Below are positions 15,298 through 55,094 of a DNA stretch of 55,094 bases, piece after piece. Position 1 is the first letter of the stretch, and each line of letters opens with the position of its first letter. This DNA is from a virus: positions 1-55,094 of the IMG/VR virus record IMGVR_UViG_3300020074_000024. One strand, given 5' to 3'. Both the position numbers and the translations under genes were made by a program. Below the pieces are notes generated by a model. That model was not told where the DNA came from and made no database searches. It worked only from the letters and a program-made list of their open reading frames with translations.

Positions 15298-15319
15298 ATT
15301 CTAATTCCAGAATTAGATT
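15298..15319. promoter_or_regulatory. Operator-like inverted repeat IR4
   Basis: Arms TTCTAAT and ATTAGAT around TCCAGA, in the 30-bp gap between tape measure and distal tail genes. One arm mismatch. Confidence 0.6.
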
Positions 15320-27258: not shown

Positions 27259-27260
27259 TT

Positions 27261-28253: not shown

Positions 28254-28260
28254 ATGTACC

Positions 28261-29606: not shown

Positions 29607-30177
29607 GTCTCTCCCTCATGACCAAAATCTCTGTGGCCACAAAAACGGTCTGCAATGAATGAAAAATTACCTCCATGCCACGTTCCTCCCAGAGTCGCAG
29701 CCAATCGCCAGGCTGGATAAGATGCGCGGGTTCTTTGTCGGGAACGCCAGGTGTGGCCTGGCAGACATATCCCCCTGGACGGAGAACCCTCTGAATCTGC
29801 CGCAACGCCGCAGGCAAGTCATAGACATGCTCCATTGTGTGAATCGAGATGACGCAATTTACACTGGCCTCCGGCATGACCTTGTCAAGCAGCTCGACGG
29901 GGCAGCACATCACCCCGTCCCCGCACAACTCAGGCAGCAGCTCGATTGCGTAAAGCTCGCTCGCCCCGGCGCTGCGTAGGAAGGGAAGGTACTTGCCGTC
30001 AGACGCCCCCAACTCCAGCATGGGGGTACGCATCTCCTTCGGGACATGGTGTAGCATTATGGAATACACGGTGCGTGCCGCCTGTTCCACGGCAAACCTC
30101 GCGGGCCCCAGTTTCCTGAGCCACTCATCCATGTCAATTCTGTGCTTGCGGTTCAATCGTAGCGCCGCTTGCATCAT
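29593..30177 (-). CDS. Class I SAM-dependent methyltransferase, 194 aa
   Basis: ATG at 30177 overlaps the neck gene by ATGA. Core: PMLELGASDGKYLPFLRSAGASELYAIEL, then VNCVISIHTMEHVYDLPAALRQI and RVLRPGGYV. The N-terminus is short. One GAATGAAAA site is read as Phe-His-Ser. Probable glycan or cofactor methyltransferase; substrate not inferable. Confidence 0.8.
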   Translation of the reverse strand: MMQAALRLNRKHRIDMDEWLRKLGPARFAVEQAARTVYSIMLHHVPKEMRTPMLELGASDGKYLPFLRSAGASELYAIELLPELCGDGVMCCPVELLDKVMPEASVNCVISIHTMEHVYDLPAALRQIQRVLRPGGYVCQATPGVPDKEPAHLIQPGDWLRLWEERGMEVIFHSLQTVFVATEILVMRERRGEA

Positions 30178-30569
30178 GCCTCCGAGAACACAAACGAGTA
30201 CAGACAGACGAAGCGAGGCCACTTGGTCTCCGGCTCCAGAACGAAGGAGCCTGAGTCCATCACATCTGCCGCATAGAAAAAAGTTGCCCCTATCATAGCG
30301 GAACCCCCTCGCTTCAGCCCGTCGTGAAGCGCCCTGGCCACTTCGTATGCCTCCACATTAGACGCGCCATAGCAGTGAAACGTGGCCCTGATGTCCAGTC
30401 GCGGAACCAGAGACACGGCAGGCATCCCATCCACAACAAGAACAACGCACTTGCGCGGCATGGCCGCAACCTCCTGGGTGGGGAGTTGCAGGCCAAACAC
30501 CCGCGTGCCCACCTGTGCCCCCATGAATGATAAAAGGTGCGTTCTGATGACTGCCACCGGGTCAATCAA
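30174..30569 (-). CDS. Tail terminator / tail completion-like protein, 131 aa
   Basis: TTG at 30569 chosen because GGAGGA lies 5 nt upstream; no ATG fits. The opening IDPVAVIRTHLLSFMGAQVGTRVFG and the strand pattern ending LDIRATFHCYGAS...AYEVARALHDGL are typical of small proteins that cap phage tails (DUF3168-like). Position after the gp10-like protein supports this. Confidence 0.6.
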   Translation of the reverse strand: MIDPVAVIRTHLLSFMGAQVGTRVFGLQLPTQEVAAMPRKCVVLVVDGMPAVSLVPRLDIRATFHCYGASNVEAYEVARALHDGLKRGGSAMIGATFFYAADVMDSGSFVLEPETKWPRFVCLYSFVFSEA

Positions 30570-30951
30570 GGCGTTCCTCCGACAGGAAGGCGTCCGCGTA
30601 ATTCCAGATTCGCAGCGCGGAAGGCCACAGCCACGGGTAGCGAAAGAAGTTGCCAGCCTTAGAATGCCAGCCGACCTCCAAGAATAATCCATAAGGCGCA
30701 GCGTTCGTATTCCCAATTGCAGAGTTGAGCACAGCCCCACGCCAGCGCATCTGTTCCAGCCATACGATGTTTACCATCAGCCAGCCGGTGTCAATGTGCT
30801 TGTGCGGATGCGGCCCAGGCCCGACCCCAGGTGTTACATAGTGCTGGGCAGTCTGTATAATCGCGTCCCCCATGCGCCCAACGACCCTCTCGGCCAATTC
30901 CATCAAAGGAACCTTCAAGCGCGCGGGGTACAGCTTGTACGTCACCTTCAT
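30562..30951 (-). CDS. HK97 gp10-like neck protein, 129 aa
   Basis: ATGA overlap with the head-tail joining gene. Contains AERVVGRMGDAIIQTAQHYVTPGV......HIDTGWL, then APYGLFLEVGWHSKAGNFFRYPWLWPS. The Y-x-x-F-L-E-x-G segment and the P-rich C-terminal part are typical of gp10-type proteins at the head-tail junction. Confidence 0.75.
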   Translation of the reverse strand: MKVTYKLYPARLKVPLMELAERVVGRMGDAIIQTAQHYVTPGVGPGPHPHKHIDTGWLMVNIVWLEQMRWRGAVLNSAIGNTNAAPYGLFLEVGWHSKAGNFFRYPWLWPSALRIWNYADAFLSEERLD

Positions 30952-36525: not shown

Positions 36526-36549
36526 GTTTCTAATTCCAAAATTAGATTG
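36526..36549. promoter_or_regulatory. Operator-like inverted repeat IR6
   Basis: Arms GTTTCTAAT and ATTAGATTG around TCCAAA, overlapping the stop codon of the three-domain glycosyltransferase. Inner arm matches are complete; outer bases diverge. Confidence 0.6.
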
Positions 36550-38764
36550 TTCCAGCCGCCTCTTGGCGGTAGAACTCATAGACGGGTCGAAACTTGTCCC
36601 AAAGCTGAGCCTTAATCTGTTCCCGTCGCGAATCGGCCTGCTCCCTCATGCTCCCGTCTCGCTGCCTGTACCAGAACAACGGCTCAGCAACCTTGACCCC
36701 ATACCAGCCCCGTGTGCCCGCCATTATCCAAAAGGCGTAGTCCTCCCAACCAAGGGTAAAGTCCTCGGGGTATCCCCCAATCTCCTCCCACATGCAGCGG
36801 GGGTATAGGGATGTAGCAAACATCATGCCCCGCTGAAGCATGGCCTCAAAGCTGTACTCCGGCTGGACGTGAGTGGTTTTCGAACCATCGTCCCGGAAGG
36901 CGACAAAGTCGGTATAGACAATGTTTCGCCCGTTCTGGGCAGCCAGCGTCCTCTCCAGAAAAGTTGGGGCGATGGCATCGTCTGCGTCGAGAGGCAGAAT
37001 GTACGTCCCCCTGGCCCGGCTTACCCCAGCGTTACGCGCCGCCGGAAGGCCCTTGTTGCGCTGGCTGATGTAGCGCACCCGCGGCTCATCCTCGTATGCC
37101 CGCAATGCCTTGCGAGTATCCCCAGGCGAGCCGTCATTCACAACGATGCATTCCCAGTCCTGGAACGTCTGCCCGATAACGCTGTCCACCGCCTGCGCGA
37201 GGTATTGCTCATGAGCGTAGCATGGAATGATAATACTCACAGTGGGTTTGTACACTCTGGGGTGATACGCATTCACCACCGCCCGCAGTCGGGCAACCTG
37301 GCTTTGGCTCTCCGCGTTGCGGCCAGTGTCATTCATGCGGTAGCCCCACAAGTATTCGTCCACCCACTTGCCAGTGTACCCAGCCTCCGCGATGGACAAC
37401 CAGAACTCATAATCTTCCCAAGACGGGTTGATGTCCTTGTACCCGCCGGCCCTCTCCCACGCCTCCCTGCGAAACAGGGACGCGCAACCGACATAGTTGC
37501 CAGCCTGTAGCTTGCGGGCATTGTACTCCTGGGAGCGAACCCCATTGCTCGTACCGATAATTGCAAAGTTGCTGTAGGCAAAACCAACCCCAGGAGCCAT
37601 GTGAGGCAACATCTTCTCCAGGTAGTTAACGCTCAAAACATCGTCCCCGTCCAGGCACACAACGAACCGCCCCCTGGCCTTCTGAACGCCAAGGTTGCGA
37701 GCCTTGGCCGCGCTGCCAGTGTTCCTGCGAGTGCGAATGGCCTTAACCCGCCCCTTGGATATAATCCCCCAGGAGCCGTCAGTGCTCCTGTCGTCCACGA
37801 CAATTACCTCAGCGGGTACAGTTTGCCGCAGGGCAGACTCGATGGCGTCCCCGATGTACTGCTCCTTGTTGTAGCAGGTGATTACAATACTGGCCTCCGG
37901 CCCCTTATGAACAACGCGCCTGGAGTCCTCGTAACAGGATATGTACTGCCGGATGACCCTGTCCCACGTATAGTGCGCCGCCACTATCTCGCGGCCAGCC
38001 TCGCCGAGGCGACCCCTGTTGGCTATAGCCTGCCTCACCGCCTCAGGCAAATCCACCTGCCTGTCGCATAGCACGCCGGGCACGCCATGCTCGAACACCT
38101 CCTGCGTTCCGCCGTAAGCCATGCTAACCACAGAAACGGCCATAGACATGGCTTCCAAGACCTGAATGGAAAAACACTCCAGGGTGGTTGCCAGCAAACA
38201 AGCCGCCCCGCCAAGCCACGCCAGCGCGTCCTCGCGGCTCAACTTGCCAGTGACCCGCACGTTCGGTGGAATAGCCACCCCGTCCGGCACACTCACGAAA
38301 ACATAGGGGATGTCCGGGGTCTGCTCAGCCACCCACAAGGCTAGGCGCGCTCCCTCGTCCACCACGCCGCCTCCACACACTTTGCCAAAGAACACGTATC
38401 CCTGCGGCTCGACACGCGCAAATAAATCTGTGCCGTTAGGGATGATACGCACGTCCCTGCGCCTGTAGGAGCCAACGCCCCAGCGGCAAGGGCTGGTGAC
38501 TGTGGTGGCAGTCAAGAGGTTCCAGTAAATTGTGTTGTTGGCCTCCCTCTCCCAATCACTGCGAACGGGAGGGGGATATACGCCGTGACACGTGTACACA
38601 TCCACCTGGGGAGATGCGGCAATCGCATGACAGTGAACAATGTCCGCTACGTCAGCTTCCACAATCTCTATCCCGAAAGAAGGAAGCCTGGCGCGAAGCT
38701 CCTGCGTCACGCGGGCGACCCCGCCAAACCCAACCTCCTCAGGCAGAACAGCTACCCTCACCAT
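36542..38764 (-). CDS. Three-domain glycosyltransferase (GT-B plus two GT-A domains), 740 aa
   Basis: ATG at 38764 behind AGGAGGAT. Residues 1-285 form a GT4-type domain (FGGVARVTQELRA, IPNGTD, ECFSIQVLEAMSMAVSVVS). Residues 290-490 are a GT2 domain (SIVITCYNKEQY, VVDDRSTDG at 322-330, LDGDD at 371-375). Residues 507-740 are a second GT2 domain (SIIIPCYAHEQYL, VVNDGSPGD, LDADD at 592-596, WEDYAFW). Both GT2 domains keep their metal-binding Asp motifs, so all three could be active, building a short glycan in steps. It follows the major capsid gene, so capsid glycosylation is plausible. No GAATGAAAA site lies in it. Confidence 0.85.
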   Translation of the reverse strand: MVRVAVLPEEVGFGGVARVTQELRARLPSFGIEIVEADVADIVHCHAIAASPQVDVYTCHGVYPPPVRSDWEREANNTIYWNLLTATTVTSPCRWGVGSYRRRDVRIIPNGTDLFARVEPQGYVFFGKVCGGGVVDEGARLALWVAEQTPDIPYVFVSVPDGVAIPPNVRVTGKLSREDALAWLGGAACLLATTLECFSIQVLEAMSMAVSVVSMAYGGTQEVFEHGVPGVLCDRQVDLPEAVRQAIANRGRLGEAGREIVAAHYTWDRVIRQYISCYEDSRRVVHKGPEASIVITCYNKEQYIGDAIESALRQTVPAEVIVVDDRSTDGSWGIISKGRVKAIRTRRNTGSAAKARNLGVQKARGRFVVCLDGDDVLSVNYLEKMLPHMAPGVGFAYSNFAIIGTSNGVRSQEYNARKLQAGNYVGCASLFRREAWERAGGYKDINPSWEDYEFWLSIAEAGYTGKWVDEYLWGYRMNDTGRNAESQSQVARLRAVVNAYHPRVYKPTVSIIIPCYAHEQYLAQAVDSVIGQTFQDWECIVVNDGSPGDTRKALRAYEDEPRVRYISQRNKGLPAARNAGVSRARGTYILPLDADDAIAPTFLERTLAAQNGRNIVYTDFVAFRDDGSKTTHVQPEYSFEAMLQRGMMFATSLYPRCMWEEIGGYPEDFTLGWEDYAFWIMAGTRGWYGVKVAEPLFWYRQRDGSMREQADSRREQIKAQLWDKFRPVYEFYRQEAAGTI

Positions 38765-38776
38765 ATCCTCCTGGAT

Positions 38777-38803
38777 AAGGGGGCGGGGTAGCCCCGCCCC
38801 CTT
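38777..38803 (-). terminator. Very GC-rich hairpin after the major capsid gene
   Basis: Arms of 12 bp (AAGGGGGCGGGG and its complement) around a 3-nt loop, 8 bp past the capsid gene stop. The next bases (ATCCAGGAGG) are not a T-run and already form the ribosome site of the next gene. It may be a leaky terminator or an mRNA stabiliser. Confidence 0.55.
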
Positions 38804-38810
38804 GCATTCG

Positions 38811-40226
38811 TTATCGTGGCGGAGAGGTCTGAACTGGCGACCAATCCTCCCATCCACCGCACGGCCCGTACGTGTACGGGAGCTGTGCGTATGCAGCCGG
38901 ATTCGTGGGTGGCCTGCCTCCGAAGAAGTACGGGTCACCCGGCTTGGGCTGCATCGGCGGGATGTTGAATGGCGCACAAACGTCCGTGATTCTACCCTGC
39001 AACCAAGGCGTCCGGAGAACCATGCGCGCCTTGGCATAGACCGTCTCGTTGAAACACTCGTTCACATTCTTGCTGTGGGTCAGGAAGCGCCCACCGTCTG
39101 TCACCATCGCGCCCTGGACAAGCCTGTCCTGCGGAATGCCTGCCAGCGTACTGGCAAAGTCCTGGTGCTCCATATACAGGGCCCGACCGCCGCCAACACG
39201 CCTGGTCAGCACGAAGATGTCTGAGCAGAAGAACGGCGCTTCGGATGTCTGTGGTATCCAGTCATTCGTCAAGATACTCACCGGAATACCGTCCACCTCG
39301 AAGATACCCTGGCCGAACGTGCCGGCAGTAGCGATTCGCGCCCGTTCCCTCTGGGACTCTAGCGGGTTGACGTTCACCTCGTTGTACTGCTGCCCCTGGC
39401 ATGGCCCGCAGCCGCAGGCCACGAAGTCAATCAGGGCGTCTCGCATCAAGGACGTCATAACCAGCGCGATGTCGTCAGGAGCAACCCCGCCCAAGAAGCG
39501 GGCCCTTGTCCTGATGCGCCGCACGATGTCCCTGATGTAGTCACATATGCTGTTGTTCATGGCATTGGCGCCCCACTGCACGATAAGTGGCTCGGCGTCC
39601 TGGCAGCGCGCCCCTGTCCGGTAGTCAATCACCGGCGTGCTGATGAGGCGCTGAAGCCCGTCAAAGTGCAAGGCGCTTGTCTGCCGGTTGCCAATGACGA
39701 GCATCCTCTCGTATGCCTGGCGCAAAACGAAGCTGGCCAGGCTTATCTGCCACATGCGCTCGTCTGTGATTCGCTGGTTTGCGCTTGGCCCGCGTATCAC
39801 GTATCGCGGCTCAATGTCGCATCCCCGCAAGCCCAACTGAAGCAGGCTGAGGTCTGCGCCTGAGAAGGACATCTCGCCAAAACAGTAGAGTAGCTCGCAC
39901 TTGCCATGCTCTACCCTGGGCGAGTCCTCGCAGGGGCCCTCGCGTTCCCACACAGGGCTGTTCGCAGACGTCCCTTGCGGCCCAATCCAGCCCATCAGCT
40001 TGACCGGGTGGGGGTCAACATCGCTGCCCTCCGTGCCCAACCAGGTGCTCAGCATGTCGTCGGTGATAAGAGTAGATATCAACTCGTTGCCACCACAATA
40101 GCTGAACATCCCCTGGCCGTATATCCATGTCTGCGGCTGCAACAGGGCAGTGCCAGCCGCCACATTCACCTTCTCTCGCTCGAGGTAGCCCTTGATGGCC
40201 TCAAGCAGTCCAGTCTCAATGCTCAT
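38811..40226 (-). CDS. Major capsid protein (HK97-fold type), 471 aa
   Basis: ATG at 40226 (MSIETGLLEAIKGYLEREKV); longer readings lack a ribosome site. Middle part has DDMLSTWLGTEG, a P-domain-like stretch, LASFVLRQAYERMLVIGNRQ and the late VMTSLMRDALIDFVACG, FEVDGIPVSILTNDWIP, IFVLTRRVGGGRALYMEHQDF. Placement directly after a protease-scaffold gene and before a strong hairpin fits the capsid gene. It is Cys-rich for a capsid protein (CGCGPCQ), which may reflect disulfides or a metal site. Confidence 0.8.
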   Translation of the reverse strand: MSIETGLLEAIKGYLEREKVNVAAGTALLQPQTWIYGQGMFSYCGGNELISTLITDDMLSTWLGTEGSDVDPHPVKLMGWIGPQGTSANSPVWEREGPCEDSPRVEHGKCELLYCFGEMSFSGADLSLLQLGLRGCDIEPRYVIRGPSANQRITDERMWQISLASFVLRQAYERMLVIGNRQTSALHFDGLQRLISTPVIDYRTGARCQDAEPLIVQWGANAMNNSICDYIRDIVRRIRTRARFLGGVAPDDIALVMTSLMRDALIDFVACGCGPCQGQQYNEVNVNPLESQRERARIATAGTFGQGIFEVDGIPVSILTNDWIPQTSEAPFFCSDIFVLTRRVGGGRALYMEHQDFASTLAGIPQDRLVQGAMVTDGGRFLTHSKNVNECFNETVYAKARMVLRTPWLQGRITDVCAPFNIPPMQPKPGDPYFFGGRPPTNPAAYAQLPYTYGPCGGWEDWSPVQTSPPR

Positions 40227-40227
40227 G

Positions 40228-41322
40228 TCATCCACCCCTCGCTGCCCTGTGCTCCTGAATCGCCTTGATGCTGTCCGCGAGATTGCGGGGCTTGGGAGCC
40301 TCGGCAGGTGCGGGAGCCTCCTTCTGGGCCTCCCCCCTGGTAGCGAACCACACCTCGCGCTTAGGAAGCGCCTCAAGTGCAGCCTTGATTTTTTCGTCGT
40401 CATTCTCTTTCAGTGCCTTGACCTGGTCGGCAAGAACAACCAAAGCGTCCTTCACCGAGTCAAGGTCTGCGGGCTTCAGCAAAGCGGCGACTTTTCCTGC
40501 AATAGCCTCAATGACGTCGTCACTGAGCACGATGCTCTGCACGGTCTGCTCTTCTTTGCTTTGCAAGCCCGCCAGCTCAGCGGCTTTGTCCCTGGCCTCC
40601 ACGGCCTCCAGAAAAGCCTTGGCTTGTTCAGGCCCAACCAGCTCACTGAGCGCGTTTCTCTGCTCGTCAGTCATCTCCATCTCCTCTGGGGCCGAAAACG
40701 AAGTCAGCACATTGGCCGCCCTGCCCTTTGGTAACAGGCTCAGCTCCACCGTGCGGAACCAGTCGTAGACCCCATCTGTGAATTGCTTCTCGTCCCACAT
40801 GAACCGGTGGGACATGCCCCAGTCACCCCAGTCCTGAATGGCGCTGGCGATTTTGAGGCCCCACTCGTTCAGTGTTCCAGCGGCCACTCCGAAGCGGCCC
40901 TGAATGTCCATCCACTCCACCGTGCCGATGGGGTGAGGCATGTGCCAGAACCAAAGCTCCGGCAGCCTGTGTTCCTTGTTCGCCCATTCCGTGTACTCGG
41001 CAATGGCTGCGGTGGAAAGTATTTCTCTGTCCCTGTCCTCAAAGGCGTTAGTCCACGCCCCGACCCACTTGTTGCCGATGGCCTTGAAGCCAACCTGCTT
41101 TTTGTGCTCCTTGACCCAAGCCTCGGCTTTCTCCTCGTCCCATTTCTCCTTGTCAAACAGGTAGGTCTGAATTGTCGTGGACTCCTCGCCTTCGAGCTTG
41201 CCAACCACCGCCTTAATGCCCTTCTCCTCAGACACATCAATCGTGCGGAAAGAATCCTTCTCAAAATCCTCAGGGTCGCGGACTCTCACCCGCACATAGT
41301 TATCCGTTGTTTCTACCGGCAT
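40228..41322 (-). CDS. Prohead protease/scaffold fusion (XkdF-like), 364 aa
   Basis: ATG at 41322 behind GGGAGGAG. Residues 1-210 resemble the XkdF-type protease region (VRVRVRDPEDFEKDSFRTI, KAVVGKLEGEESTTIQTYLF, WDEEKAEAWVKEHKK; then HPIGTVEWMDIQGRFGVAAG). Residues 215-364 are a Glu/Lys/Ala-rich coiled coil with a basic tail, as in scaffolds. The gene ends 1 nt before the capsid start. It would mature the prohead and then degrade itself. Confidence 0.7.
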   Translation of the reverse strand: MPVETTDNYVRVRVRDPEDFEKDSFRTIDVSEEKGIKAVVGKLEGEESTTIQTYLFDKEKWDEEKAEAWVKEHKKQVGFKAIGNKWVGAWTNAFEDRDREILSTAAIAEYTEWANKEHRLPELWFWHMPHPIGTVEWMDIQGRFGVAAGTLNEWGLKIASAIQDWGDWGMSHRFMWDEKQFTDGVYDWFRTVELSLLPKGRAANVLTSFSAPEEMEMTDEQRNALSELVGPEQAKAFLEAVEARDKAAELAGLQSKEEQTVQSIVLSDDVIEAIAGKVAALLKPADLDSVKDALVVLADQVKALKENDDEKIKAALEALPKREVWFATRGEAQKEAPAPAEAPKPRNLADSIKAIQEHRAARGG

Positions 41323-41999
41323 AGCTCCTCCCAGGGCCATTCATCGAGCAGGCCCTTGGCTTCCACTTGTCTGTCGGCAAGGCAGTGTTGCTTCTGCTTG
41401 CCAAGTCGCATGTACACGTCCCCGTCCCTGGCGCTGCGCTTGAGGCGATGGACGTGCAGCCCGTGATAAGGCCGTTTGTAGCTGTTGAAGTAATGAAAAA
41501 GCGCCTTGTCATGCAGCGCGAGGTCAAATGACTCAGGGCATTCAAAAGGGTACTCGCCGTTCCAAGCGTCTGTCAACGGGAAGAGCGCCGCCCGGTTGAA
41601 CACGTCGTCAAGCAAGATAAAGTCCTGGCCCTGCTGTTCAATCGTCACCAGCTTGGTCATGCCCATTCGCGCAGGCATGTCCTGGGACAGTATCTCGTCA
41701 ATGCCGCTGGGATAGTATATCTCGTCGCCGTCCACCTGGAAGCCCCAGGTGAACCCCTCCCTGATCGCCTGCTGCGCCAAATCACCACGAATCCCGCCGA
41801 GCTTTCGGGCATCGCACTCCCCGTACTGAGTCAGCCTGGCCCAGGGCTCAAACTGCTGAACACTCGCCACGGTAGCATCGGTTGACCCCGTATCGCCAAC
41901 AAAGCAAGCGGAGAACCTGTGCAGCGAGGAGAGAATGGCGTGAATGAAAAACTCCTCGTTGCGTATCATCAGCAAGGGAGCTATACTTGCGGGAACCAC
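41313..41999 (-). CDS. GT2-like glycosyltransferase, 228 aa
   Basis: GTG at 41999. GT-A pattern: APLLMIRNEEFFIHAIL, FVGDTGSTDATVA, then FTWGFQVDGDEIYYP with the metal-binding DGD and a late H-x-L region with HGLHVHRLKR. Substrate unknown. One exact and one near-exact GAATGAAAA site lie in it, in different codon phases. One of four glycosyltransferase genes in the window. Confidence 0.75.
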   Translation of the reverse strand: MVPASIAPLLMIRNEEFFIHAILSSLHRFSACFVGDTGSTDATVASVQQFEPWARLTQYGECDARKLGGIRGDLAQQAIREGFTWGFQVDGDEIYYPSGIDEILSQDMPARMGMTKLVTIEQQGQDFILLDDVFNRAALFPLTDAWNGEYPFECPESFDLALHDKALFHYFNSYKRPYHGLHVHRLKRSARDGDVYMRLGKQKQHCLADRQVEAKGLLDEWPWEELCR

Positions 42000-43258: not shown

Positions 43259-43280
43259 AAAGAGGGGGTTCTACCCCCTC
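43255..43280 (-). terminator. Intrinsic terminator upstream of the moron-like cassette
   Basis: GAGGGGG, 5-nt loop, CCCCCTC followed by seven T on the minus strand. The stop codon of the zinc-ribbon gene falls in the loop. The 120-bp space 43151-43270 holds only this terminator, IR7 and P6. Confidence 0.8.
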
Positions 43281-43540
43281 ATGCCGAGCCGCTTCATCAG
43301 CGTCTCCAGGTCGATCAGCACCCCTTCGTGCTTCTTCCTGTTGTACAGCTCCAAATGCCAGTGGCCGTCAATCAGGACAGCCCTGGCAAGTTTCGCCTCC
43401 CCACTACTGATAAAGCCGTTCCCTTGCACGCTCCAGTCGCCAGTGGTGCGCCGAGGGCGCTTGCAGACAGGGCAACAGTGGACGTCACCGTCCAGAGCGT
43501 AACTGATGACCAGCCCGCAGGCACTACACTGCCACGTCAT
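43271..43540 (-). CDS. Zinc-ribbon protein, 89 aa
   Basis: Starts MTWQCSACGLVISYALDG followed by DVHCCPVCKRPRR: a complete two-knuckle zinc ribbon. The rest is beta-helix-alpha (AVLIDGHWHLELYNRKKHEGVLIDLETLMKRL). Function unknown. Its end overlaps a terminator. Confidence 0.6.
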   Translation of the reverse strand: MTWQCSACGLVISYALDGDVHCCPVCKRPRRTTGDWSVQGNGFISSGEAKLARAVLIDGHWHLELYNRKKHEGVLIDLETLMKRLGMRG

Positions 43541-43742
43541 CGTCCGGCTTGCTCAGGAAAGAGAGCAGTGCCTTCACGGAGACAAGCCCGCCAAATAACC
43601 CCATGAGCATCATCGCCATGAGGCCAAGGCAGCCGGGCGGCTTGTCAACTTCGGCGCGCCTGTAGTAGACCAGGGCCTTGAACGAGCCGTACACGAAATA
43701 CAATACCGGGAACACCAACAACCCTGCCAAAAACTGAATCAT
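43524..43742 (-). CDS. Small membrane protein with two spans, 72 aa
   Basis: ATG in a TGATG overlap with GGAGG upstream. Hydrophobic segments at about 2-22 (IQFLAGLLVFPVLYFVYGSF) and 40-58 (LMAMMLMGLFGGLVSV) with a basic loop between and an acidic tail. It could be a holin-like or superinfection protein, but it sits among head genes and no specific role can be argued. Confidence 0.5.
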   Translation of the reverse strand: MIQFLAGLLVFPVLYFVYGSFKALVYYRRAEVDKPPGCLGLMAMMLMGLFGGLVSVKALLSFLSKPDDDVAV

Positions 43743-43963
43743 CAATCCTCCATAATCTCGGCTCTGAGGTACGCCCCGTCATACCTCTGCGGCGCACCTT
43801 CGATGGCTTTGCGTACAGCGGCCTCGTCCTTGCGGTCTATGTCGCGCAGCATGTTATCCAGGATTCGCCTGGCAATTACCGTATCTGCCTTAAGGGGCGG
43901 GAATGTGACAAAGCCAAGTGTCACCGGCCCGTCCGCGCTTGTTGTTTCAAAACGAATCCGCAT
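43742..43963 (-). CDS. Hypothetical protein, 73 aa
   Basis: ATG at 43963 overlaps the portal gene end by 17 bp. Beta-rich start (MRIRFETTSADGPVTLGFVTF), then charged helices (IARRILDNMLRDIDRKDEAAVRKAI). Not recognised. Confidence 0.5.
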   Translation of the reverse strand: MRIRFETTSADGPVTLGFVTFPPLKADTVIARRILDNMLRDIDRKDEAAVRKAIEGAPQRYDGAYLRAEIMED

Positions 43964-46259
43964 AGCTAGACCCTCCTTCAGTGTACAGATTGAACCCTCC
44001 TACCTGAATCATATTTTGAAAATTGTCCCACATAGCATCAACATCATGCTTTTTAGGGCTTTTTGACACAAGCGTTAACTTGCCCACGGATTGCTTGAAT
44101 TGCTTCTCAGTTATCCCTTTCCATCGCGCGAGCTTTTCGGGCGTAAATTGGGCGAACTCGCGTCGGTTGCTGGCGGGATAACGCACCCATAGCGCCACAA
44201 CATTCTTCCCGCTCACTATCTTGCGCCCGTTGTCGGCGTGCCCGTGGTCTATGGCCCACAGCTTGCCCTTACTGTCAAATATGTAATTGCCGCCATGCCT
44301 GTCGCCGTTCCCCATTACAATGTCCAGCGCAAGCATATCCTCAGCCCTGCTCCTGTTGTCCTTCAAGGACTTCTCCAGGTTGTCAACGTAGTCGGCAACT
44401 TTGGCGTTCTCAACAAAATACTGCACCGTCCCTTTGTTCCCCTGAAACGTCAGCTCCTTTGTTTCCGGGACAACGGGGTCATCGGGGTTAAGCATCTTCG
44501 CTACCCTGTATGCGGCAATTTCATTGTTTGCATTGTGTCCATATGCATTGTCCGCGTCCTTGTAAACCCCAGAGCCGTCACCGGCCAGCCCAACAACATA
44601 CGAGTAGTTGATGCCCCCACCGAGCTTCTTCGACGTAGCGACCTCAGTGGCCCTGCCAAAGGCGGTCCCTCTAGGCGCAGCCACCGCCGCTGCGTGACCG
44701 GCAGGATTGCGATGAATCCCGCCACCGGGCCGGCTTCCTCCCCTGTGTCCAGGCCTGCCTTCATGTCCCCAGTTACCGCTGCCAGGGCCACCCTTCTCGC
44801 CAAGCAATCTCTCGGCCTTGCGGTCGAGCAAGCTACCAAAGGCCTCATTCCATGAGCGAATCGAGGCAACAATTTGCCTTTTCCGCCACTCAGGCAATTC
44901 CTCATAGTCCGCTGCCTTTGTCTCCTCTGGAGCTTCGCTAGACACGTCGGTCACGGTCTCCTCAGTCTCCTGTGGGACAATCACCGCCGCGTCCAGTTCC
45001 TCCTCAGTCAAACAGTTCTCCCTGGCCAGGATGCGCAGCGCAACCTCTTTGGGCAAAAGTCCCGTCTCCATACCCTGCGGTGGCGACCAGAGCTTGGTCA
45101 CATAGTCGCCCCAAGCCCCTGCCAGTTGGGCTCTGTGCAAATCCCCGGCGTCGTCCTGCTCATCAAAGACAAACTCTGCCCCTTCGGGGAGCACTTCGTA
45201 GTTGAGCGCCCTCTCCAGGATACGCAGAATCTCACCAACGCCCTTCCCCTGCCCTTTGAGGTGTTGAACCTCACCGACAGCCTTGGTGGAGCCGGTGTGT
45301 GTAAACAGCCAAAACTCCCCGGCGTCCACGCCAGCGCAAGCGGACAGTGTCTTCACATACGTCTCAACTACATCCTTGCGGGTGAAGCTAGCAGGCGGCT
45401 CGCTGAAGGGAACCCACTTCACATCCACGCCCGGCCCCATCTCGTTGTTAGAAGCCAGCCACAGAAGTTTCTTGAATGTCAAGTCTCGGCTGCCCCTGTT
45501 CGCCTTCCACAAGTCAAGGGCGTCCTTGACCTGCTGCTGGTTCATGCCCGTCACCGCCGCAATGCCCTCAGGCGGCATATCGTCCAGGGCGTCTTCTTCG
45601 TACTTGTGTAAAGCAAGAAGCAGCGAGATGGTGCGGATAGCCCTGCTCACCAAAGACACGCCCGTCCAGTGAGTGGCCTCTACATCGGAGGGCATAGACG
45701 TTCTGTGAACCACGTCCCTGCTCCGCAGGGGAACAACCCTTCCAGCCGATGTGTAGTACACCAAGTCGCCGTCAGTGCCAGGAGGAAACCCCGACTCGCC
45801 CCTGAAGCGACAGTTAGCGATGTCCAGATAGGCAAGCCCTGTTACAGGGCCGTTCTTGCTGGTGCGGCCCTTCTCAAACAACGCCCCCCTGTCCTGAGTC
45901 AAAAAGCAGCGCACCCACCGCTTCAGTTCTGTGTCCCAGCCGGCGCCCTCTCCAGCAGACAGCAACATCTCCGTGGCCTGCTGAGCCAGGCGCGGCTTGC
46001 CAGTGACCTTCCATGCCGTGGTCGCCACCCTGCTGACGATGGTGTAAATCACCCCTGCCAGCAAAGGCTCCTCCAGCCAAACGTCCCTGAGCCGCTTGTC
46101 TCTCTCCACCGTCCCTGCTGGCGGCAATTGCCCGACCTTGCCCGCCAACATGGACATCATCATGAATGCCTGCCCGACATCCCCATCAAAGCGGCTCTGG
46201 ACGAACTCAGGCCGTTTGGCTTTCGTTAGTTGCCTCTGTATCCATTCCTGATAGCCCAT
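43947..46259 (-). CDS. Portal protein fused to a PI3/PI4-kinase-like domain, 770 aa
   Basis: ATG behind GGGGGAAG. Residues about 1-430 are a phage portal (MLAGKVGQLPPA, EPLLAGVIYTIVSRVATTAWKV, RDVVHRTSMPSDVEATHWTGVSLVSRAIR). Residues 489-513 are a Gly-rich linker with GGPGSGNWGHEGRPG and GGSRPGGG. Residues about 545-740 look like a PI3/PI4-kinase-type catalytic domain: VYKDAD with a candidate ATP-binding Lys567, NNEIAAY with Glu580, GNGDRHGGN with Asp653, His655 and Asn658, and IDHG with Asp671. Portals normally end near 450-500 residues, so this is an added cargo or enzyme domain. It could phosphorylate a host or virion target; substrate unknown. Note that the linker resembles those of phage MuF-type proteins with toxic C-termini. 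Confidence 0.85.
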   Translation of the reverse strand: MGYQEWIQRQLTKAKRPEFVQSRFDGDVGQAFMMMSMLAGKVGQLPPAGTVERDKRLRDVWLEEPLLAGVIYTIVSRVATTAWKVTGKPRLAQQATEMLLSAGEGAGWDTELKRWVRCFLTQDRGALFEKGRTSKNGPVTGLAYLDIANCRFRGESGFPPGTDGDLVYYTSAGRVVPLRSRDVVHRTSMPSDVEATHWTGVSLVSRAIRTISLLLALHKYEEDALDDMPPEGIAAVTGMNQQQVKDALDLWKANRGSRDLTFKKLLWLASNNEMGPGVDVKWVPFSEPPASFTRKDVVETYVKTLSACAGVDAGEFWLFTHTGSTKAVGEVQHLKGQGKGVGEILRILERALNYEVLPEGAEFVFDEQDDAGDLHRAQLAGAWGDYVTKLWSPPQGMETGLLPKEVALRILARENCLTEEELDAAVIVPQETEETVTDVSSEAPEETKAADYEELPEWRKRQIVASIRSWNEAFGSLLDRKAERLLGEKGGPGSGNWGHEGRPGHRGGSRPGGGIHRNPAGHAAAVAAPRGTAFGRATEVATSKKLGGGINYSYVVGLAGDGSGVYKDADNAYGHNANNEIAAYRVAKMLNPDDPVVPETKELTFQGNKGTVQYFVENAKVADYVDNLEKSLKDNRSRAEDMLALDIVMGNGDRHGGNYIFDSKGKLWAIDHGHADNGRKIVSGKNVVALWVRYPASNRREFAQFTPEKLARWKGITEKQFKQSVGKLTLVSKSPKKHDVDAMWDNFQNMIQVGGFNLYTEGGSSYADSF

Positions 46260-46461
46260 GCTTCCCCCAACGTTCGCTGTATCTCGCTTCCCTATCCTCG
46301 TCTATGTCCAGGCCGTGTAAAAGACAGATTTGCTCAGCCGCCCAGTCCTCTACCCGCCAGCCGAAGCGCTCGAATGAAAATAACAGACGATACCACGTCA
46401 ACACAACCCAAGCCGCAACCCCGCTGAGTAAGAATCTAATTTTGCTATTAGATTTACTCAC
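46207..46461 (-). CDS. Small membrane-anchored protein, 84 aa
   Basis: GTG overlaps the large terminase stop. One hydrophobic segment (about 8-28, IRFLLSGVAAWVVLTWYRLLF) and an acidic-basic C-terminal part. It overlaps the portal gene by 53 bp. Its first codons contain inverted repeat IR8 and it has one GAATGAAAA site. Function unknown. Confidence 0.5.
   Translation of the reverse strand: MSKSNSKIRFLLSGVAAWVVLTWYRLLFSFERFGWRVEDWAAEQICLLHGLDIDEDREARYSERWGKHGLSGMDTEATNESQTA
46433..46454. promoter_or_regulatory. Operator-like inverted repeat IR8
   Basis: Perfect 8-bp arms AATCTAAT and ATTAGATT around TTTGCT, with GTAA/TTAC extending the symmetry. It covers codons 3-10 of the small gene that follows the large terminase. 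Confidence 0.65.
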
Positions 46462-47747
46462 GCCATGAATCCCCCACCGCCGCCATCGTCGTCCATCGCG
46501 TAGCGGAGGGCGTCAACCCGGTGGAATGTCTCCTTGTCCTGTATCTTTTCCGTCGGCTTGCCGTCAGTCCCCAAGGTACGCTGGTATGATTGTACGTCAT
46601 CTATCAGCCCAGGACAACTACGGAAGACGAACAGCCTATCTTGCCCCCACAGCGCGTTGAGCCTATCTATCCCCGATTCTACTGATGACACAACAGGCGG
46701 GTCAAGCGGGACCCCACACGCTCTCCAGTCCATCCGGGACTGTGTTTCGGATTTACTGCCGCCCTTCCAGACAACGACTCTCTCAGCCCGTGCGTGTTGC
46801 AGTGCCCTGGCCGAATGCTCAGCCGTTGTCAGCCCGCCGGAAAGTGTCTCGCGATACACGTAGAATGCCCTGCGCTCCCTGTCCTCAGCCACCCATACCA
46901 AGGCAGTGTTCGCACCGCCAAAGTCCACCCCTACTCGACGTGGCCACTCAGGTGGGACGTCGAAGGGCTCGACTGCGTGCCGCGCTTCCTGAAACTTGCT
47001 GAACACTAGCCACTCAGGGCGCTCGAATTGCCCGTCGTAGAACATCCTGAACTTGGAGTGGCTCACAGTGCTTCTGGCTCTCTCGTACTCAGCGGCGGGA
47101 AAGGCCGGATTGACTATACTTGGCGCTTGACAGACAAAGTAATTGGGGTCTCCACTCCTGGCCCTGTCCAAGACTTCGTGCTTCAGCCAATTCACCGCAT
47201 AAGGAGTCGTGCCCCCGAAAAACCTCCCCTGGGAGAGGCTAAGGCGTCGCAAGATAGCCTGCCAGGAGTCCAGCCTGAAAGACGGCTGGCCTATCTCGTC
47301 ACCAATCACCGCCTGAACGGTAGCTGACTCTAGCCCGCCCGGACTTTCGGCAGACCGCAGGATGACGCGGCCCCACATGGGGTCACTCGCCCGTTCAGCC
47401 CAAAATCTCCCAGTGTTCGGGTCGCGCAGTTCCAGCACTTTGTCCCCAGACCAATACTTCCCCATCTTCATGCCGTACACAAACACTTCCAGCATCGCCG
47501 GTAGCATCTTGAGCTTGAACAGGTCGTAGGTCGCCGTGACCGCCAGGTAGTCCCCCTTGCCCCTGCCCTTGTAGCCGTCAAGCCCGTATATCTCCCTGTA
47601 GAGAATCCAGGGGAGAAAAGTAGTCTTCCCGCCCTGCGTCCCGATAATCAGGAATGAAAAACGGGCCTGCGAATCCCAAAGCGACTCCTGGGCCTTGTGC
47701 AACCTGAGGCGAACCCCGCCGTCCTCGAATCCCCATAACGGCTTCAC
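46458..47747 (-). CDS. terL: Large terminase subunit
   Basis: A 429-residue packaging motor. ATPase: adenine motif LHKAQESLWDSQ, Walker A GTQGGKTT (36-43), Walker B AVIGDEIG with Asp150-Glu151, and coupling region FFGGTTP. Nuclease: VGVDFGG (Asp275) and a late FHRVDALRYA. GTG start in a GTGA overlap with the small subunit. Length and motifs are complete. One GAATGAAAA site precedes the Walker A codons. Confidence 0.95.
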   Translation of the reverse strand: MKPLWGFEDGGVRLRLHKAQESLWDSQARFSFLIIGTQGGKTTFLPWILYREIYGLDGYKGRGKGDYLAVTATYDLFKLKMLPAMLEVFVYGMKMGKYWSGDKVLELRDPNTGRFWAERASDPMWGRVILRSAESPGGLESATVQAVIGDEIGQPSFRLDSWQAILRRLSLSQGRFFGGTTPYAVNWLKHEVLDRARSGDPNYFVCQAPSIVNPAFPAAEYERARSTVSHSKFRMFYDGQFERPEWLVFSKFQEARHAVEPFDVPPEWPRRVGVDFGGANTALVWVAEDRERRAFYVYRETLSGGLTTAEHSARALQHARAERVVVWKGGSKSETQSRMDWRACGVPLDPPVVSSVESGIDRLNALWGQDRLFVFRSCPGLIDDVQSYQRTLGTDGKPTEKIQDKETFHRVDALRYAMDDDGGGGGFMA

Positions 47748-48240: not shown

Positions 48241-49572
48241 TCAATCATCCAGCGAGTGGAAAGTATAGAATACGTCGCCATCCACAATGCGCGTAGGCCG
48301 CAACGCGCCTTGAAAATACTGGTAAGGCGAGCGCTCCCTCTGGGGGTCGTTCCATAGGTCGCGCAGAAAGTCGGCCCAAGTGTAATATTTGCGCTTATGC
48401 CGCTTGAGCGGCCCGGCGGGGACAGGAACCATGTTGTCCCAGGGCACAGAGTAGGCCCATGGCGGCGTTATGTCCTGCGGGCCAATCTCCGTGCCAGTGG
48501 CTTTGGCTCGCAGCAATTGATTCGTGGCGCTCTCGCGCTGCCAATTGCCGAAGACTGGGTCGTCAGGCATGATTCCGCAACAGCAGCCGGTATCGCCGAG
48601 TTCCTTCCAGACCGGGTCACTAATGCCCACGACCATGCCGTGCCTGTGCGCAACGTCGCGCACGTCATGCATGACAGCCCGCGTCCAGGCCGCAGCGGGC
48701 CGGACACATGCCCTTTGGCCGAACTTGGCGTAAGTACCCAGGTGGTCAAACCCCGTTACGTCACTCAAGAGCTTCCACCGGGCGCGCACATCGTTTGTGG
48801 GCGCACCCGGGGTGAAGGCAACCTCGTAGGAAACGGCCCTTGCGCCCGCCTCTGCCGCCGCTGCGATCAACTCGCGGTATGCATACGGGTTCGCCGGATG
48901 GCCCCAAGTCACGCCTGCCAGCATGGGCCGCAAGCGCAGTGACGTCTTCACGCCGATGCCGGACAGGGCCTTCATGGTCGCTAGTCGCTCCGAGGGCACC
49001 GGGGCCTTGCGGTCAATCTTACGCACTAGGGAATCGTCCGGGCTGACGATACTGAACGCAACCCAGAACAAGTGCGGGGCGCGTTCTAGCACCCGCAGAT
49101 AGTCAGGCTGGGCCAAGACGACGCCCTTTGTGGAGATTCTCGTCGGCTGGTTGTATTTGATTGCTAGTTCTAGATACCGCAATAGCCAGCCCTGCTGCTG
49201 CTCGATGTAATCGCATGGGTCGTTGAGTGCGCCTAACTGCACCGGACCAGGGTAGCCGTTACGCCTGTCGTCATACTTGAGAGCCTTGCGCATGACGTCA
49301 AACCGCTTGCCCTCGCCAGCGAAGAGGTTCTCTATAGAGCGCAAGCTCGTCTGCCCGACGCCCCATCCAGTACTCTGCCGGTGCGACAACAGGTTGTTGG
49401 AAAAACAGTACAGGCAAGCAAAAGAGCAGAACGAATGGCTGTCTATGCTTACCGGCAACGCACAGTCAAAACCGTCGCTAGTAAACCGGATGCCGTCGTA
49501 GGCCCGCAATCGTTGCCGAACCGGCGCGCAGTATGAGCCATCGCAACGCCGACAAGTCGCGCAAACGTTCAT
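48241..49572 (-). CDS. Radical SAM protein (SPL-like family), 443 aa
   Basis: ATG at 49572 (MNVCATCRRCDGSYC). The radical SAM cluster motif is CSFACLYC. Upstream Cys (CATCRRC) and a later CCCGIMPDD suggest a second iron-sulfur or zinc site. The layout, with ARISTKG-like and SLRLRPMLAGV strands, resembles COG1533/SPL-type proteins. Located between ParB-like and terminase genes. Possible role: DNA base modification or repair, inferred from neighbours only. Confidence 0.8.
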   Translation of the reverse strand: MNVCATCRRCDGSYCAPVRQRLRAYDGIRFTSDGFDCALPVSIDSHSFCSFACLYCFSNNLLSHRQSTGWGVGQTSLRSIENLFAGEGKRFDVMRKALKYDDRRNGYPGPVQLGALNDPCDYIEQQQGWLLRYLELAIKYNQPTRISTKGVVLAQPDYLRVLERAPHLFWVAFSIVSPDDSLVRKIDRKAPVPSERLATMKALSGIGVKTSLRLRPMLAGVTWGHPANPYAYRELIAAAAEAGARAVSYEVAFTPGAPTNDVRARWKLLSDVTGFDHLGTYAKFGQRACVRPAAAWTRAVMHDVRDVAHRHGMVVGISDPVWKELGDTGCCCGIMPDDPVFGNWQRESATNQLLRAKATGTEIGPQDITPPWAYSVPWDNMVPVPAGPLKRHKRKYYTWADFLRDLWNDPQRERSPYQYFQGALRPTRIVDGDVFYTFHSLDD

Positions 49573-49576
49573 TGCC

Positions 49577-50212
49577 TCATGGCGCGGATTCTGTAGCATA
49601 TTTCCTGACCGCCTTGGCGAACCAGTCGGGGTCTAGTTCGTGCACGCCGCGTTGTAGCGCTGGGGCTAGCAACAGCGACAATTCAGCAAATAGTTCTGGC
49701 CGCCCGTAGAACGTTACGTAGAACCAATTCTCGTCTTTGGTCGTACAGCCGCGCTGTTCCGTGAACTCGGGCAGAATGTCCGGCAACTCAATTGGGCCAG
49801 CAAGCTCTGCCCCTAGCTCAGCGTCCGTCCATAGACCCCTTAGGTCTATCTCCTTGCCAATATCCGCCAGCACCTCCGCATCCCACTCCGCCAGTTCCGC
49901 TGTGCGGTTGTCGTACAGTGCCAGCTTGGCCTTCTGTTCCGGTGTCAATCCCTTGCGCCGCACGGCCACAATCGTCTCGCCGTCAGCATCTACCACCTGG
50001 ACCCGCTCGATACCCGCCTGGGCTGCCGCTTCGACGAGGCCATTTCCAGCCAGGATCGTGCCATCCTCGTCAATGACGATAGACCTCGCTGCACCAACCT
50101 CGCCGAGTGCCTTCTCTATCATGCCGATGTTGCGCGCGTTGTGCTTCCGCGCGTTGCGCTTGTCCGGCCTCAGTTGCCCGATGCGCTCAATCGCTTCGAG
50201 TGACTCTGCCAT
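49577..50212 (-). CDS. ParB/sulfiredoxin-fold protein, 211 aa
   Basis: ParB-like N-terminal domain: ARKHNARNIGMIEKALGEVGAARSIVIDEDGTILAGNGLVEAA, with GN in place of the usual GHRR, then VRRKGLTPEQKAKLALYDNRTAELAEWD. This shape is frequent next to phage terminases and DNA methylases. The missing His/Arg suggests no CTP hydrolysis, or another nucleotide chemistry. C-terminal 80 residues are beta-alpha and unrecognised. Confidence 0.8.
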   Translation of the reverse strand: MAESLEAIERIGQLRPDKRNARKHNARNIGMIEKALGEVGAARSIVIDEDGTILAGNGLVEAAAQAGIERVQVVDADGETIVAVRRKGLTPEQKAKLALYDNRTAELAEWDAEVLADIGKEIDLRGLWTDAELGAELAGPIELPDILPEFTEQRGCTTKDENWFYVTFYGRPELFAELSLLLAPALQRGVHELDPDWFAKAVRKYATESAP

Positions 50213-53075: not shown

Positions 53076-53278
53076 GCCCCGCCCTTGGACGCCTCACCGA
53101 CCGCCTCGAATTGTAAGCCGTTATCGCCGTCTATCGGGGATGAGTGCCTGTTCCGTCCGGCGCGAATATCGTCTGGTATTCCGTCAGGAAAGGCGAAACA
53201 CCGAGGCCATGCCGCTAGGTAGATACACCCACGGCAGACGGGTTCAGGGATGTCGCCTGTGTCTGGGAAGGCGGTCAT
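53072..53278 (-). CDS. Small Cys protein with CFAFPDGIP motif, 68 aa
   Basis: ATG overlaps the effector gene stop by ATGA. The sequence has CRGCIYLAAWPRCFAFPDGI, P-x-x-I, G-x-x-x-H and PIDGDNGLQFE. I recognise this C-x-x-C...C-x-A-F-P-x-G-I-P...GDxGxxFE pattern as a recurrent small protein near phage head-morphogenesis genes; function unknown. Its coupling to the effector gene suggests a partner, chaperone or immunity role. Confidence 0.6.
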   Translation of the reverse strand: MTAFPDTGDIPEPVCRGCIYLAAWPRCFAFPDGIPDDIRAGRNRHSSPIDGDNGLQFEAVGEASKGGA

Positions 53279-55094
53279 TTCTTTATCCCGTCAATGGCAA
53301 TCCAGTCGCCACCCTCGTTCAACTCCTGGATAGAGATGCCCCCACAGGGAGTCCAGTTGTCTCCGTCCGCTGAGACAAACAAGCCGCCGTCCTCCAGTTT
53401 GATATACAACGCCTGCCTCTGCTCCTCGCCGTAAACGCGCGCCCAGTACAACGTCTCCATAGCCTTCACCTTCCATGCCAGTGTTTCAATTTGAGGGGGC
53501 GGGGGCACTGTTCTCTCCACGTTTCTTTGCATCTGCACAAGGTATTTCCCCCACCGGGAGTCGCCTGGCGGCAATGCTCGTTGCCTTTGGTATGTTTTGT
53601 GGTTAAGAGTCTCCTTGGCGTGGTATGATTGCCTTGTGTGGAATTGCACCTCGAAGATGGCCCCCGTCTTCTTGTCCTGCCAATTTGTGTTAAGTCCCCA
53701 GTAGCCATAATTCTTTGTGCCCCAAAAGTTGCGGAGTTTCTTGTCATAGACCTCAAGTCCCGCAGCTCGCAGTTGCTTGAATATCTCCTTCGTTCCTGAC
53801 ACATAGTTTTCGGGCGATAGCCGTACTGTGTAGCGCAGAGCGTCGTGTACCCTATGGTAAGCTATGGCCTCCGGCACTCCATGCGACACCTCCCATAGGG
53901 CCTTACGCTCGATGCCTTCGGCAGTTTTGAAGCGGTGGTCGAGCCCGACAAGCTCCCCTCCCCCCGCCGCCGTTGCCCCTGATAGCGCGGCAGTTATTTC
54001 AGGCTCCGCTTCCGTGACGCGGGACAATAACGCCTCGGCGTTCATTGGCAGTCTGTGGTGTCCCCCTCCGGGCCTGCTCCCGCCCACATGCGGCGGGTTG
54101 CCTTCGTGCGCCCAGTGACCGGAGCCAGCCCCTCCCTTAATGACCTCAGATTGTACGGTCTGCATCAATAATGAAAAAAGTTCCTCAGACTCGCGGGACT
54201 GGAAGCCCTTTTTCCCTGCCACTGTCAACGCCCATGTTTCCGCAAACCACTCATGGAAGCCATCGCGGGCCCGTGCCGTTGCGCCGTGCTGTCTCGCAAA
54301 TGCGTCCCAAGTCGTCTTTTGGATAGTCCCACCTGCCGCCAAAAGCCCCGCCACCTGGGAGAACGTCTCCCGATGTTTTGGGTCGCGTAGATTTTTCAGG
54401 GCCCTATACCCAACCGCGTGGCCGAATTCATGCCTGGCGCACCCTTCGTAGGGGTCAGAAAATGCGTAGCTGCTGTGTTCGCGCCACAGTTCGTCCCGGC
54501 CATCCTCCATCAACTTGCCAACCCTGGCCAGGACGGCGCCCTCCATGCGGTCAGCATCGCCCATTCTCTGCTGGTGCTCTTCCGTGGTTATCAGCCCTTT
54601 CTGGAGTGCGTCGCCGGCCTTTGCACGCACCCTGTCTGCCACGGCTCCGCCATCGTTCATGAGTCTGTTGGCCTCGTCATCCCAAGATTCGTGCGGCCCA
54701 ATGATAATAGTACCGTCAGCTTTGTAGTGCCCTTGCCCTAACACGTCCCCCTGGTCAAAAATGAGCGTGCCATTCCAGTCCGACTCATGGTCCATGTTCA
54801 TCTCCTGAACCATGCCTTGCATCCGGCGGCGGACGTCCTCAGGTATCTCCCTGGGCCCGTCGCGAACCTCGGTATGATAGCGGAGCGCGGAGTCAGCAGG
54901 AGTGCCCGGCGCGCCCCCGCCCCCCGTCCACTGCCCACCTTCCGGCGCCCCTGCCGGCGCACGCGGTTGGTTCGGGTCGAACTTAGCGACGGCATCCTGC
55001 GCTTCCTTCACCGCCTGCTCTGCGCCTATCATGTCTACCCACGCCCTGCCCGCTTCCAGTGATTTCTGTGCCGCATATACCGAACCGGGCATGT
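53275..55094 (-). CDS. Multidomain effector: zinc metallopeptidase plus RelA/SpoT-like domain, N-terminus beyond window
   Basis: Open at the right edge; the ATG at 55092 may be internal, so residue numbers count from it. Residues 39-57 hold a linker (FDPNQPRAPAGAPEGGQW), common in phage head proteins. Residues about 85-315 are a metallopeptidase with HEFGH at 221-225 and a likely third ligand in HEWFAET (Glu281 or Glu285). Residues 319-344 repeat the portal linker (GGAGSGHWAHEG, GGSRPGGG). Residues about 350-510 resemble a RelA/SpoT synthetase: LDHRFKTAEGI, VHDALRYTVRL (415-425), NYGYWGLN (461-468) and FEVQFHTRQSYHAKE (480-494). A beta tail follows. It may modify nucleotides or tRNA in the host. 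The missing upstream part may be a MuF-type head domain. Confidence 0.75.
   Translation of the reverse strand, partial: MPGSVYAAQKSLEAGRAWVDMIGAEQAVKEAQDAVAKFDPNQPRAPAGAPEGGQWTGGGGAPGTPADSALRYHTEVRDGPREIPEDVRRRMQGMVQEMNMDHESDWNGTLIFDQGDVLGQGHYKADGTIIIGPHESWDDEANRLMNDGGAVADRVRAKAGDALQKGLITTEEHQQRMGDADRMEGAVLARVGKLMEDGRDELWREHSSYAFSDPYEGCARHEFGHAVGYRALKNLRDPKHRETFSQVAGLLAAGGTIQKTTWDAFARQHGATARARDGFHEWFAETWALTVAGKKGFQSRESEELFSLLMQTVQSEVIKGGAGSGHWAHEGNPPHVGGSRPGGGHHRLPMNAEALLSRVTEAEPEITAALSGATAAGGGELVGLDHRFKTAEGIERKALWEVSHGVPEAIAYHRVHDALRYTVRLSPENYVSGTKEIFKQLRAAGLEVYDKKLRNFWGTKNYGYWGLNTNWQDKKTGAIFEVQFHTRQSYHAKETLNHKTYQRQRALPPGDSRWGKYLVQMQRNVERTVPPPPQIETLAWKVKAMETLYWARVYGEEQRQALYIKLEDGGLFVSADGDNWTPCGGISIQELNEGGDWIAIDGIKK

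Follow-up and report, generated by a model that had tools for sequence, protein, structure and literature searches.

A divergent phage portal protein bears a C-terminal PI3/PI4-type kinase domain behind a recurrent glycine-rich linker

We analysed the viral record IMGVR_UViG_3300020074_000024 from IMG/VR, which in its entirety (55,094 bases) forms the window considered here, and in particular one of its genes, in which a portal protein is joined to a domain resembling phosphatidylinositol 3- and 4-kinases (PI3/PI4-type kinases). All recognisable genes of the window lie on the minus strand. Translation of open reading frames (ORFs) and Pfam matches place the portal-kinase gene at 43947-46259 (-), with its stop codon at 43947-43949 and a product of 770 residues; a first-pass annotation made from the sequence alone had coordinates, strand and frame right. 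The gene for the terminase large subunit (TerL; 46458-47747 (-); phrog_2, E 5.9e-24) lies upstream, and a single short overlapping ORF separates the two. The portal-kinase consists of a portal part (residues 1-489; 44793-46259 (-)), the glycine-rich linker GGPGSGNWGHEGRPGHRGGSRPGGG (residues 490-514; 44718-44792 (-)) and a PI3/PI4-type kinase domain (residues 545-755, with a local hidden Markov model (HMM) envelope of 545-708; 43995-44627 (-)). We regard it as practically certain that this protein is a portal-kinase fusion. Pfam, PHROG and fold matches together show an effector domain on a head protein encoded in the late module, the arrangement that marks head-packaged effectors.

The portal part is divergent in sequence. 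PF04860 matched residues 112-257 at 24.7-26 bits (E 1.6e-5 and 6e-6), below its curated cut-off of 39.1. BLASTP against the portal of L156, the viral record with the closest TerL relative, gave a weak match (E 0.057), as did a profile comparison with seven portals (E 0.063). An iterative HMM built from the portal of another viral record, L134, did not reach the window portal, and neither an exact-peptide scan of viral contigs nor tblastn against phages gave a deciding match for it; the exact-peptide scan gave none for the kinase part either. The structural model of the portal part is of low confidence (predicted local distance difference test score, pLDDT, 48). All 50 of the PDB matches listed by Foldseek for residues 1-490 are phage portal or neck structures, the best at E 2.7e-9, and they include phage 812, a gene transfer agent, HK97, lambda and Mu. 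Because portals sat in the alignment from which the model was made, this fold match is supporting evidence rather than independent proof. Taken together with the adjacency of TerL it makes the portal identity secure, and residues 1-489 are a divergent portal. The complete portal described in the first-pass annotation is thereby borne out, with PF04860 itself remaining sub-threshold.

The C-terminal part is recognisable from sequence. PF00454 (PI3_PI4_kinase) matched residues 592-675 at 35.8 bits (E 1.1e-8) in a search with the whole protein, and the C-terminal part alone scored 38.8 bits (E 1.3e-9); as both exceed the curated cut-off of 27.1 bits, the match is not due to chance. A local kinase-family HMM, of which the window sequence is itself a part, matched the domain at E 2.1e-45, and PHROG 3162 and NCBIfam TIGR03843 gave weak matches. 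We aligned 24 viral and bacterial kinase relatives, and the resulting profile (A2) found human PI4K type II alpha first (E 3.2e-19, with most of its length covered), followed by FAM20 kinases (8e-7), PI4KA, PI3K and Helicobacter pylori CtkA (2.5e-4). An AlphaFold model of the kinase (pLDDT 74; predicted template modelling score 0.76) found PI4K-IIbeta as its best Foldseek match in the PDB (E 7e-7), and then PI3Kgamma and FAM20C. The PI4K-type fold predicted here agrees with the PI3/PI4-type kinase that had been proposed to follow the portal, and a suggested comparison with PI4K, HipA and FAM20 folds held for PI4K and FAM20. It did not hold for HipA: the window protein matched neither of the HipA-like families PF20613 and PF07804 at E 1, and we rejected a HipA identity for it on that ground. 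HipA_2 matches do occur in some phage relatives of the kinase.

The residues expected of an active kinase are all present. Lys567, the ATP-binding lysine (44559-44561 (-)), Glu580, the salt-bridge glutamate (44520-44522 (-)), Asp653 and Asn658, which bound the catalytic loop DRHGGN (44286-44303 (-); GDRHSDN in PI3Kdelta), and Asp671, the metal-binding aspartate of the IDHG motif (44247-44249 (-)), correspond to columns K38, E51, D124, N129 and D142 of the A2 alignment and are invariant there. In a larger set of 52 non-redundant relatives the lysine is kept in all 45 sequences aligned at that position, the glutamate position holds Glu in 45 of 48 and Asp in the other 3, Asp653 is Asp in all, Asn658 is Asn in 51 and Asp671 is Asp in all; many of these relatives were retrieved by the pattern GNxDRHxGN, which biases the counts for Asp653, Arg654, His655 and Asn658 and leaves those for Lys567, Glu580 and Asp671 unaffected. 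Six relatives retrieved through the linker only (L134, L139, L096, L103, L068 and L113) all keep Asp653, Asn658 and Asp671. The five residues singled out in the first-pass annotation are thus conserved in its proposed comparison of homologues, across about 50 relatives. Judged from sequence and model, residues 545-755 are a PI3/PI4-type kinase with all catalytic residues intact.

The window protein has counterparts. A second portal-kinase is encoded in L134, a 46 kb record. It matches PF04860 (E 3.5e-14), the portal family phrog_2662 (E 1.3e-44) and PF00454 (E 6.7e-5); nothing else in the record matches PF04860, and by eye a TerL-like ORF lies immediately upstream. L170, from a different metagenome, carries a portal 99% identical to that of L134 and the same kinase. 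In L170 the ORF runs on into MuF, whereas in L134 the kinase is followed by a linker and another domain and MuF is a separate gene, one with an apparent intein-like insert. Between the two records dN is 0.027 and dS 0.254 for the kinase, against 0.009 and 0.206 for the portal, and by this comparison of sequences the kinase of the pair is under purifying selection. A library of viral structures added UniProt A0A6J5S481, a 1201-residue protein named 'Phage portal protein, HK97' with a kinase fold match at E 6.3e-6, which is probably a further portal-kinase. A search for portals with the same C-terminus, as the first-pass annotation had advised, yields L134, L170 and probably A0A6J5S481.

These counterparts bear on two doubts about the protein itself. 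Two adjacent genes might have been falsely joined in the assembly of one metagenomic contig: the window is a single metagenomic record, and GC content falls from 59.0% in the portal part to 51.5% in the kinase part. The frame is open throughout, though, the junction is occupied by a linker typical of the family, and an independent portal-kinase occurs in two other metagenomes, with probably a further one in UniProt; we find an artefact barely credible. Alternatively, enzyme activity could have been lost and the domain retained on the portal for binding or as a plug. In L096, a linker relative, the DRH motif is broken (RDVIGETRDN), and for that reason inactive versions may exist; MuF of phage Mu bears an inactive PBECR domain (PMC5512222). 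Against such a loss stand the intact catalytic residues of the window protein and some 50 relatives, together with the purifying selection on the L134/L170 kinase, and we consider it highly improbable here.

The glycine-rich linker of the first-pass annotation proved to be a specific sequence: GGPGSGNWGHEGRPGHRGGS is a 20-residue motif that recurs as a widespread tag. We searched viral contigs with its consensus, GG[PA]GSGN[FWH]GHxGRPGxxGGS, as a degenerate DNA pattern and obtained at least 119 viral stretches (L037-L155) with at least 178 ORFs and at least 230 copies; in several contigs three or more genes carry it. A Pfam scan took in 64 linker-bearing phage ORFs. Up to 15 of these are portals (Portal_3 in 10, PF04860 in 3, and the Mu and P23-45 types in one each) and 10 are MuF proteins. 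Effector domains in the same set comprise ADPrib_exo_Tox (7), NUDIX (4), ART-PolyVal (3), 2H (3), DRAT (2), PI3_PI4_kinase (2), Ntox50 (1) and CdiA_C (1), and domain exchange is evident, the same carrier or linker being found with different effectors. The linker has the look of a tag used generally for domains that phages inject. The string GGPGSGN gave no text in the literature searched. Short proteins carry the linker, and so do large ones, in which it sits between domains. Other short motifs stand ahead of phage kinases, namely GHxFHGNQW in L015 and near-copies of that record, where it stands in adjacent genes, several of them kinase paralogues, and RDxxGKFV or RGRDGKWV in L004 and L032; these are possibly tags equivalent to the linker.

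The phage of the window encodes a second linker-bearing protein. This protein of 605 residues (53275-55092 (-)) is open at the end of the record, and reading across the circularised record end adds only ten codons, so the ORF end was kept at 55092. It matches the portal-kinase linker at E 1.5e-12 and phrog_7625 (head morphogenesis) at E 2.2e-16. A metallopeptidase-like HEFGH motif is followed by the linker GGAGSGHWAHEGNPPHVGGSRPGGG (54061-54135 (-)), identified by its similarity to that of the portal-kinase, and then by an alarmone-synthetase-like domain (53479-54042 (-)) that matches SaSAS (PDB 8vx3, E 1.2e-21) and also phage minor head proteins. Besides the linker, GGAGSGHWAHEG, the protein holds the motif FDPNQPRAPAGAPEGGQWTGGGG.

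A (p)ppApp-synthetase-type domain on a second linker protein could point to a different role for the kinase, that of a polymorphic toxin of a temperate phage, resembling MuF toxins, which would serve competition between bacteria and be held in check by a small immunity protein whose gene lies just downstream. MuF toxins are linked to temperate phages (PMC5576092), and three small ORFs, one membrane-like and one zinc-ribbon-like, do lie directly behind the portal-kinase gene (43742-43963, 43524-43745 and 43271-43540, all (-)). A PHROG scan gave no match for any of the three, however, and the ORFs scanned, a subset of all those in the window, included no recognisable integrase or repressor. In L170, moreover, the kinase passes directly into MuF and leaves no space there for an immunity gene. 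We consider this role distinctly unlikely.

Related kinases are carried by proteins other than portals. They occur on MuF or minor capsid proteins of six records by Pfam (L030, L139, L184, L191, L197 and L198) and two by PHROG (L018 and L035), and in a large protein adjoining the portal of L017, a 169 kb phage. Halovirus gp16 carries one too, from a gene that sits between head- and tail-completion genes. Mycobacteriophage fusions with ADP-ribosyltransferase gave weak kinase scores. A profile search of genome contigs returned seven kinase relatives, none with a portal in the same ORF; family kinases were found in metagenome-assembled genomes of Chlamydiae and of Candidatus Jettenia, and the other genome-contig relatives resemble cellular HipA-like kinases. 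Escherichia tail-fibre matches (E 0.02-1) have no kinase motif and were dismissed. As far as sequence goes, both the kinase and the linker are recurring modules, attached in unrelated phages to portals, to MuF and to further proteins of head or tail.

Fusions of portal and MuF proteins to effectors are already known. PBECR, 2H, Nudix and ART domains joined to them have been published as head-packaged effectors (Iyer et al. 2017, PMC5512222; Iyer et al. 2022, PMC9503650), and these resemble the present case in the fusion of an enzyme to portal or MuF, in late-gene context and in the company of ART, Nudix, 2H and alarmone-synthetase domains, as seen on the linker proteins here. The kinases among the polyvalent effectors in the available portions of those papers are of a truncated Ser/Thr/Tyr type or of zeta-toxin type, with no PI3/PI4-type kinase and no portal-kinase among them. 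MuF polymorphic toxins (Jamet et al. 2017, PMC5576092) likewise have a C-terminal enzyme on a portal-associated head protein, and several MuF-kinases were found here; that paper does not mention kinases, and the carrier in the window is the portal itself.

Among known viral proteins, gp16 of the haloviruses HCTV-6 and HSTV-2 and gp13 of HHTV-1 are close counterparts. They fall into the same kinase family, with local HMM matches at E about 1e-57 and 1e-42 (both are members of that model), and are encoded among structural genes. Here the portal is not the carrier; that role belongs to what looks by eye like a tail component of the HK97 gp10 kind, or else to a giant polyvalent protein next to the portal. 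HCTV-6 gp16 is already annotated as 'phosphatidylinositol kinase'. In public records some proteins of the kind discussed here are named that way, or 'PI3K/PI4K catalytic domain-containing protein'. The closest solved relatives by profile, and among the best by fold, are the human type II kinases PI4K2A/B. They share about 20% identity with the window kinase, which lacks their CCPCC palmitoylation motif, as residues 515-770 contain no cysteine. H. pylori CtkA and FAM20 have the same broader fold and show that it can phosphorylate proteins or glycans, but they are not fused to virion proteins and their sequence similarity is weak. The literature searched, outside which lie many subscription papers and preprints, yielded no description of a PI3/PI4-type kinase on a portal or MuF protein. 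What appears to be new is hence the PI3/PI4-type kinase as the fused effector. The first-pass view that no portal-kinase had been described stands as regards the literature; the window protein is not unique, given L134, L170 and probably A0A6J5S481, and the same kinase is common on MuF.

What might such a kinase do? Portals of the HK97 type have their C-terminus in the crown, toward the capsid lumen, and up to twelve kinase domains would therefore be enclosed with the DNA. Packaged in the head in this way, the domains might be cut free at the glycine-rich linker by a protease or leave the particle threaded along with the DNA, and could then phosphorylate some host target during the opening minutes of infection. 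The first-pass suggestion that twelve copies at the portal vertex would be placed to enter the cell or to act during packaging is likewise a conjecture. Phage T4 Alt offers a precedent as an enzyme packaged in the head and ejected with the DNA into the host; it differs in being an ADP-ribosyltransferase and a separate protein without portal fusion. Phosphatidylinositol is absent from most bacteria, and CtkA, a secreted bacterial kinase of the same fold, is a protein kinase. For these two reasons the target is more likely a protein or small molecule than phosphatidylinositol.

Action in the producing cell is the main competitor to delivery. Ahead of packaging or in its course, the kinase could phosphorylate scaffold, capsid or terminase, or else late host proteins, and simply end up sealed in the head. 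Its site in a late operon beside TerL, its attachment to an assembly protein and our failure to find a releasing protease would fit, and Iyer et al. 2022 (PMC9503650) remark that such domains might counter immunity aimed at the packaging apparatus. A portable effector is better suited, however, to the presence of the same kinase on different structural proteins of unrelated phages and its absence from related portals, and the linker family bears classical toxin and effector domains. We hold action in the producing cell to be unlikely. The best explanation is a host-directed enzyme carried in the particle, because the kinase is portable, under selection, found on varied virion proteins and accompanied by known head-packaged effectors.

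Several observations weigh against a virion-delivered kinase. A domain tethered to the portal crown must be freed before it can enter the cell, and the window gave no identifiable prohead protease. The closest TerL relative, L156, has a portal without the kinase, which makes the domain accessory. The low GC content of the kinase part fits acquisition, as weak evidence, and the kinase tree does not separate one from two origins of portal-kinases. With these counted, we lean slightly toward the kinase being a virion-delivered effector, and the whole explanation, a portal bearing a host-directed, virion-delivered kinase as its C-terminal passenger, we believe and doubt in about equal measure.

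That the kinase turns up repeatedly on the head proteins of many phages unrelated to one another suggests that a class of particle-borne kinases has been overlooked. In a bolder and rather doubtful form, PI4K-II-like kinases would make up a class of virion-delivered phage enzymes that is widespread and has gone undescribed. They would ride as exchangeable passengers on portals, on MuF and on further proteins of head or tail, and the linker GG[PA]GSGN-x-GH-x-GRPG-x-x-GGS would be a general release or ejection tag that frees the twelve portal-borne enzymes into the cell. If the kinase is injected, several phage lineages would begin infection with a burst of phosphorylation that comes from within the particle, ahead of phage gene expression. 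The idea represented by T4 Alt would then widen from ADP-ribosylation to kinases, with new host targets and defence triggers, and the linker would give a direct handle on the route by which enzymes tethered inside the head, on portal or MuF, come to enter the cell.

Some further features were observed in passing. By eye, the portal gene of L167 is split by two insertions resembling inteins or homing endonucleases. In the window, a radical SAM protein (48241-49599 (-); PF04055, E 7e-8) is encoded with the terminase genes on one side and a ParB-like protein on the other, and a very long protein of 3550 residues (15319-25971 (-)) is probably the tape measure. The structural module contains glycosyltransferase- and methyltransferase-like genes (26710-30740 and 36542-41999 (-)), among them one for an 831-residue protein with at least two glycosyltransferase-type domains. 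A 799-residue protein (32985-35384 (-)) with a weak tail-fibre match contains many near-identical GTGHTISGVVSGC-type repeats, which are beta-helix-like.
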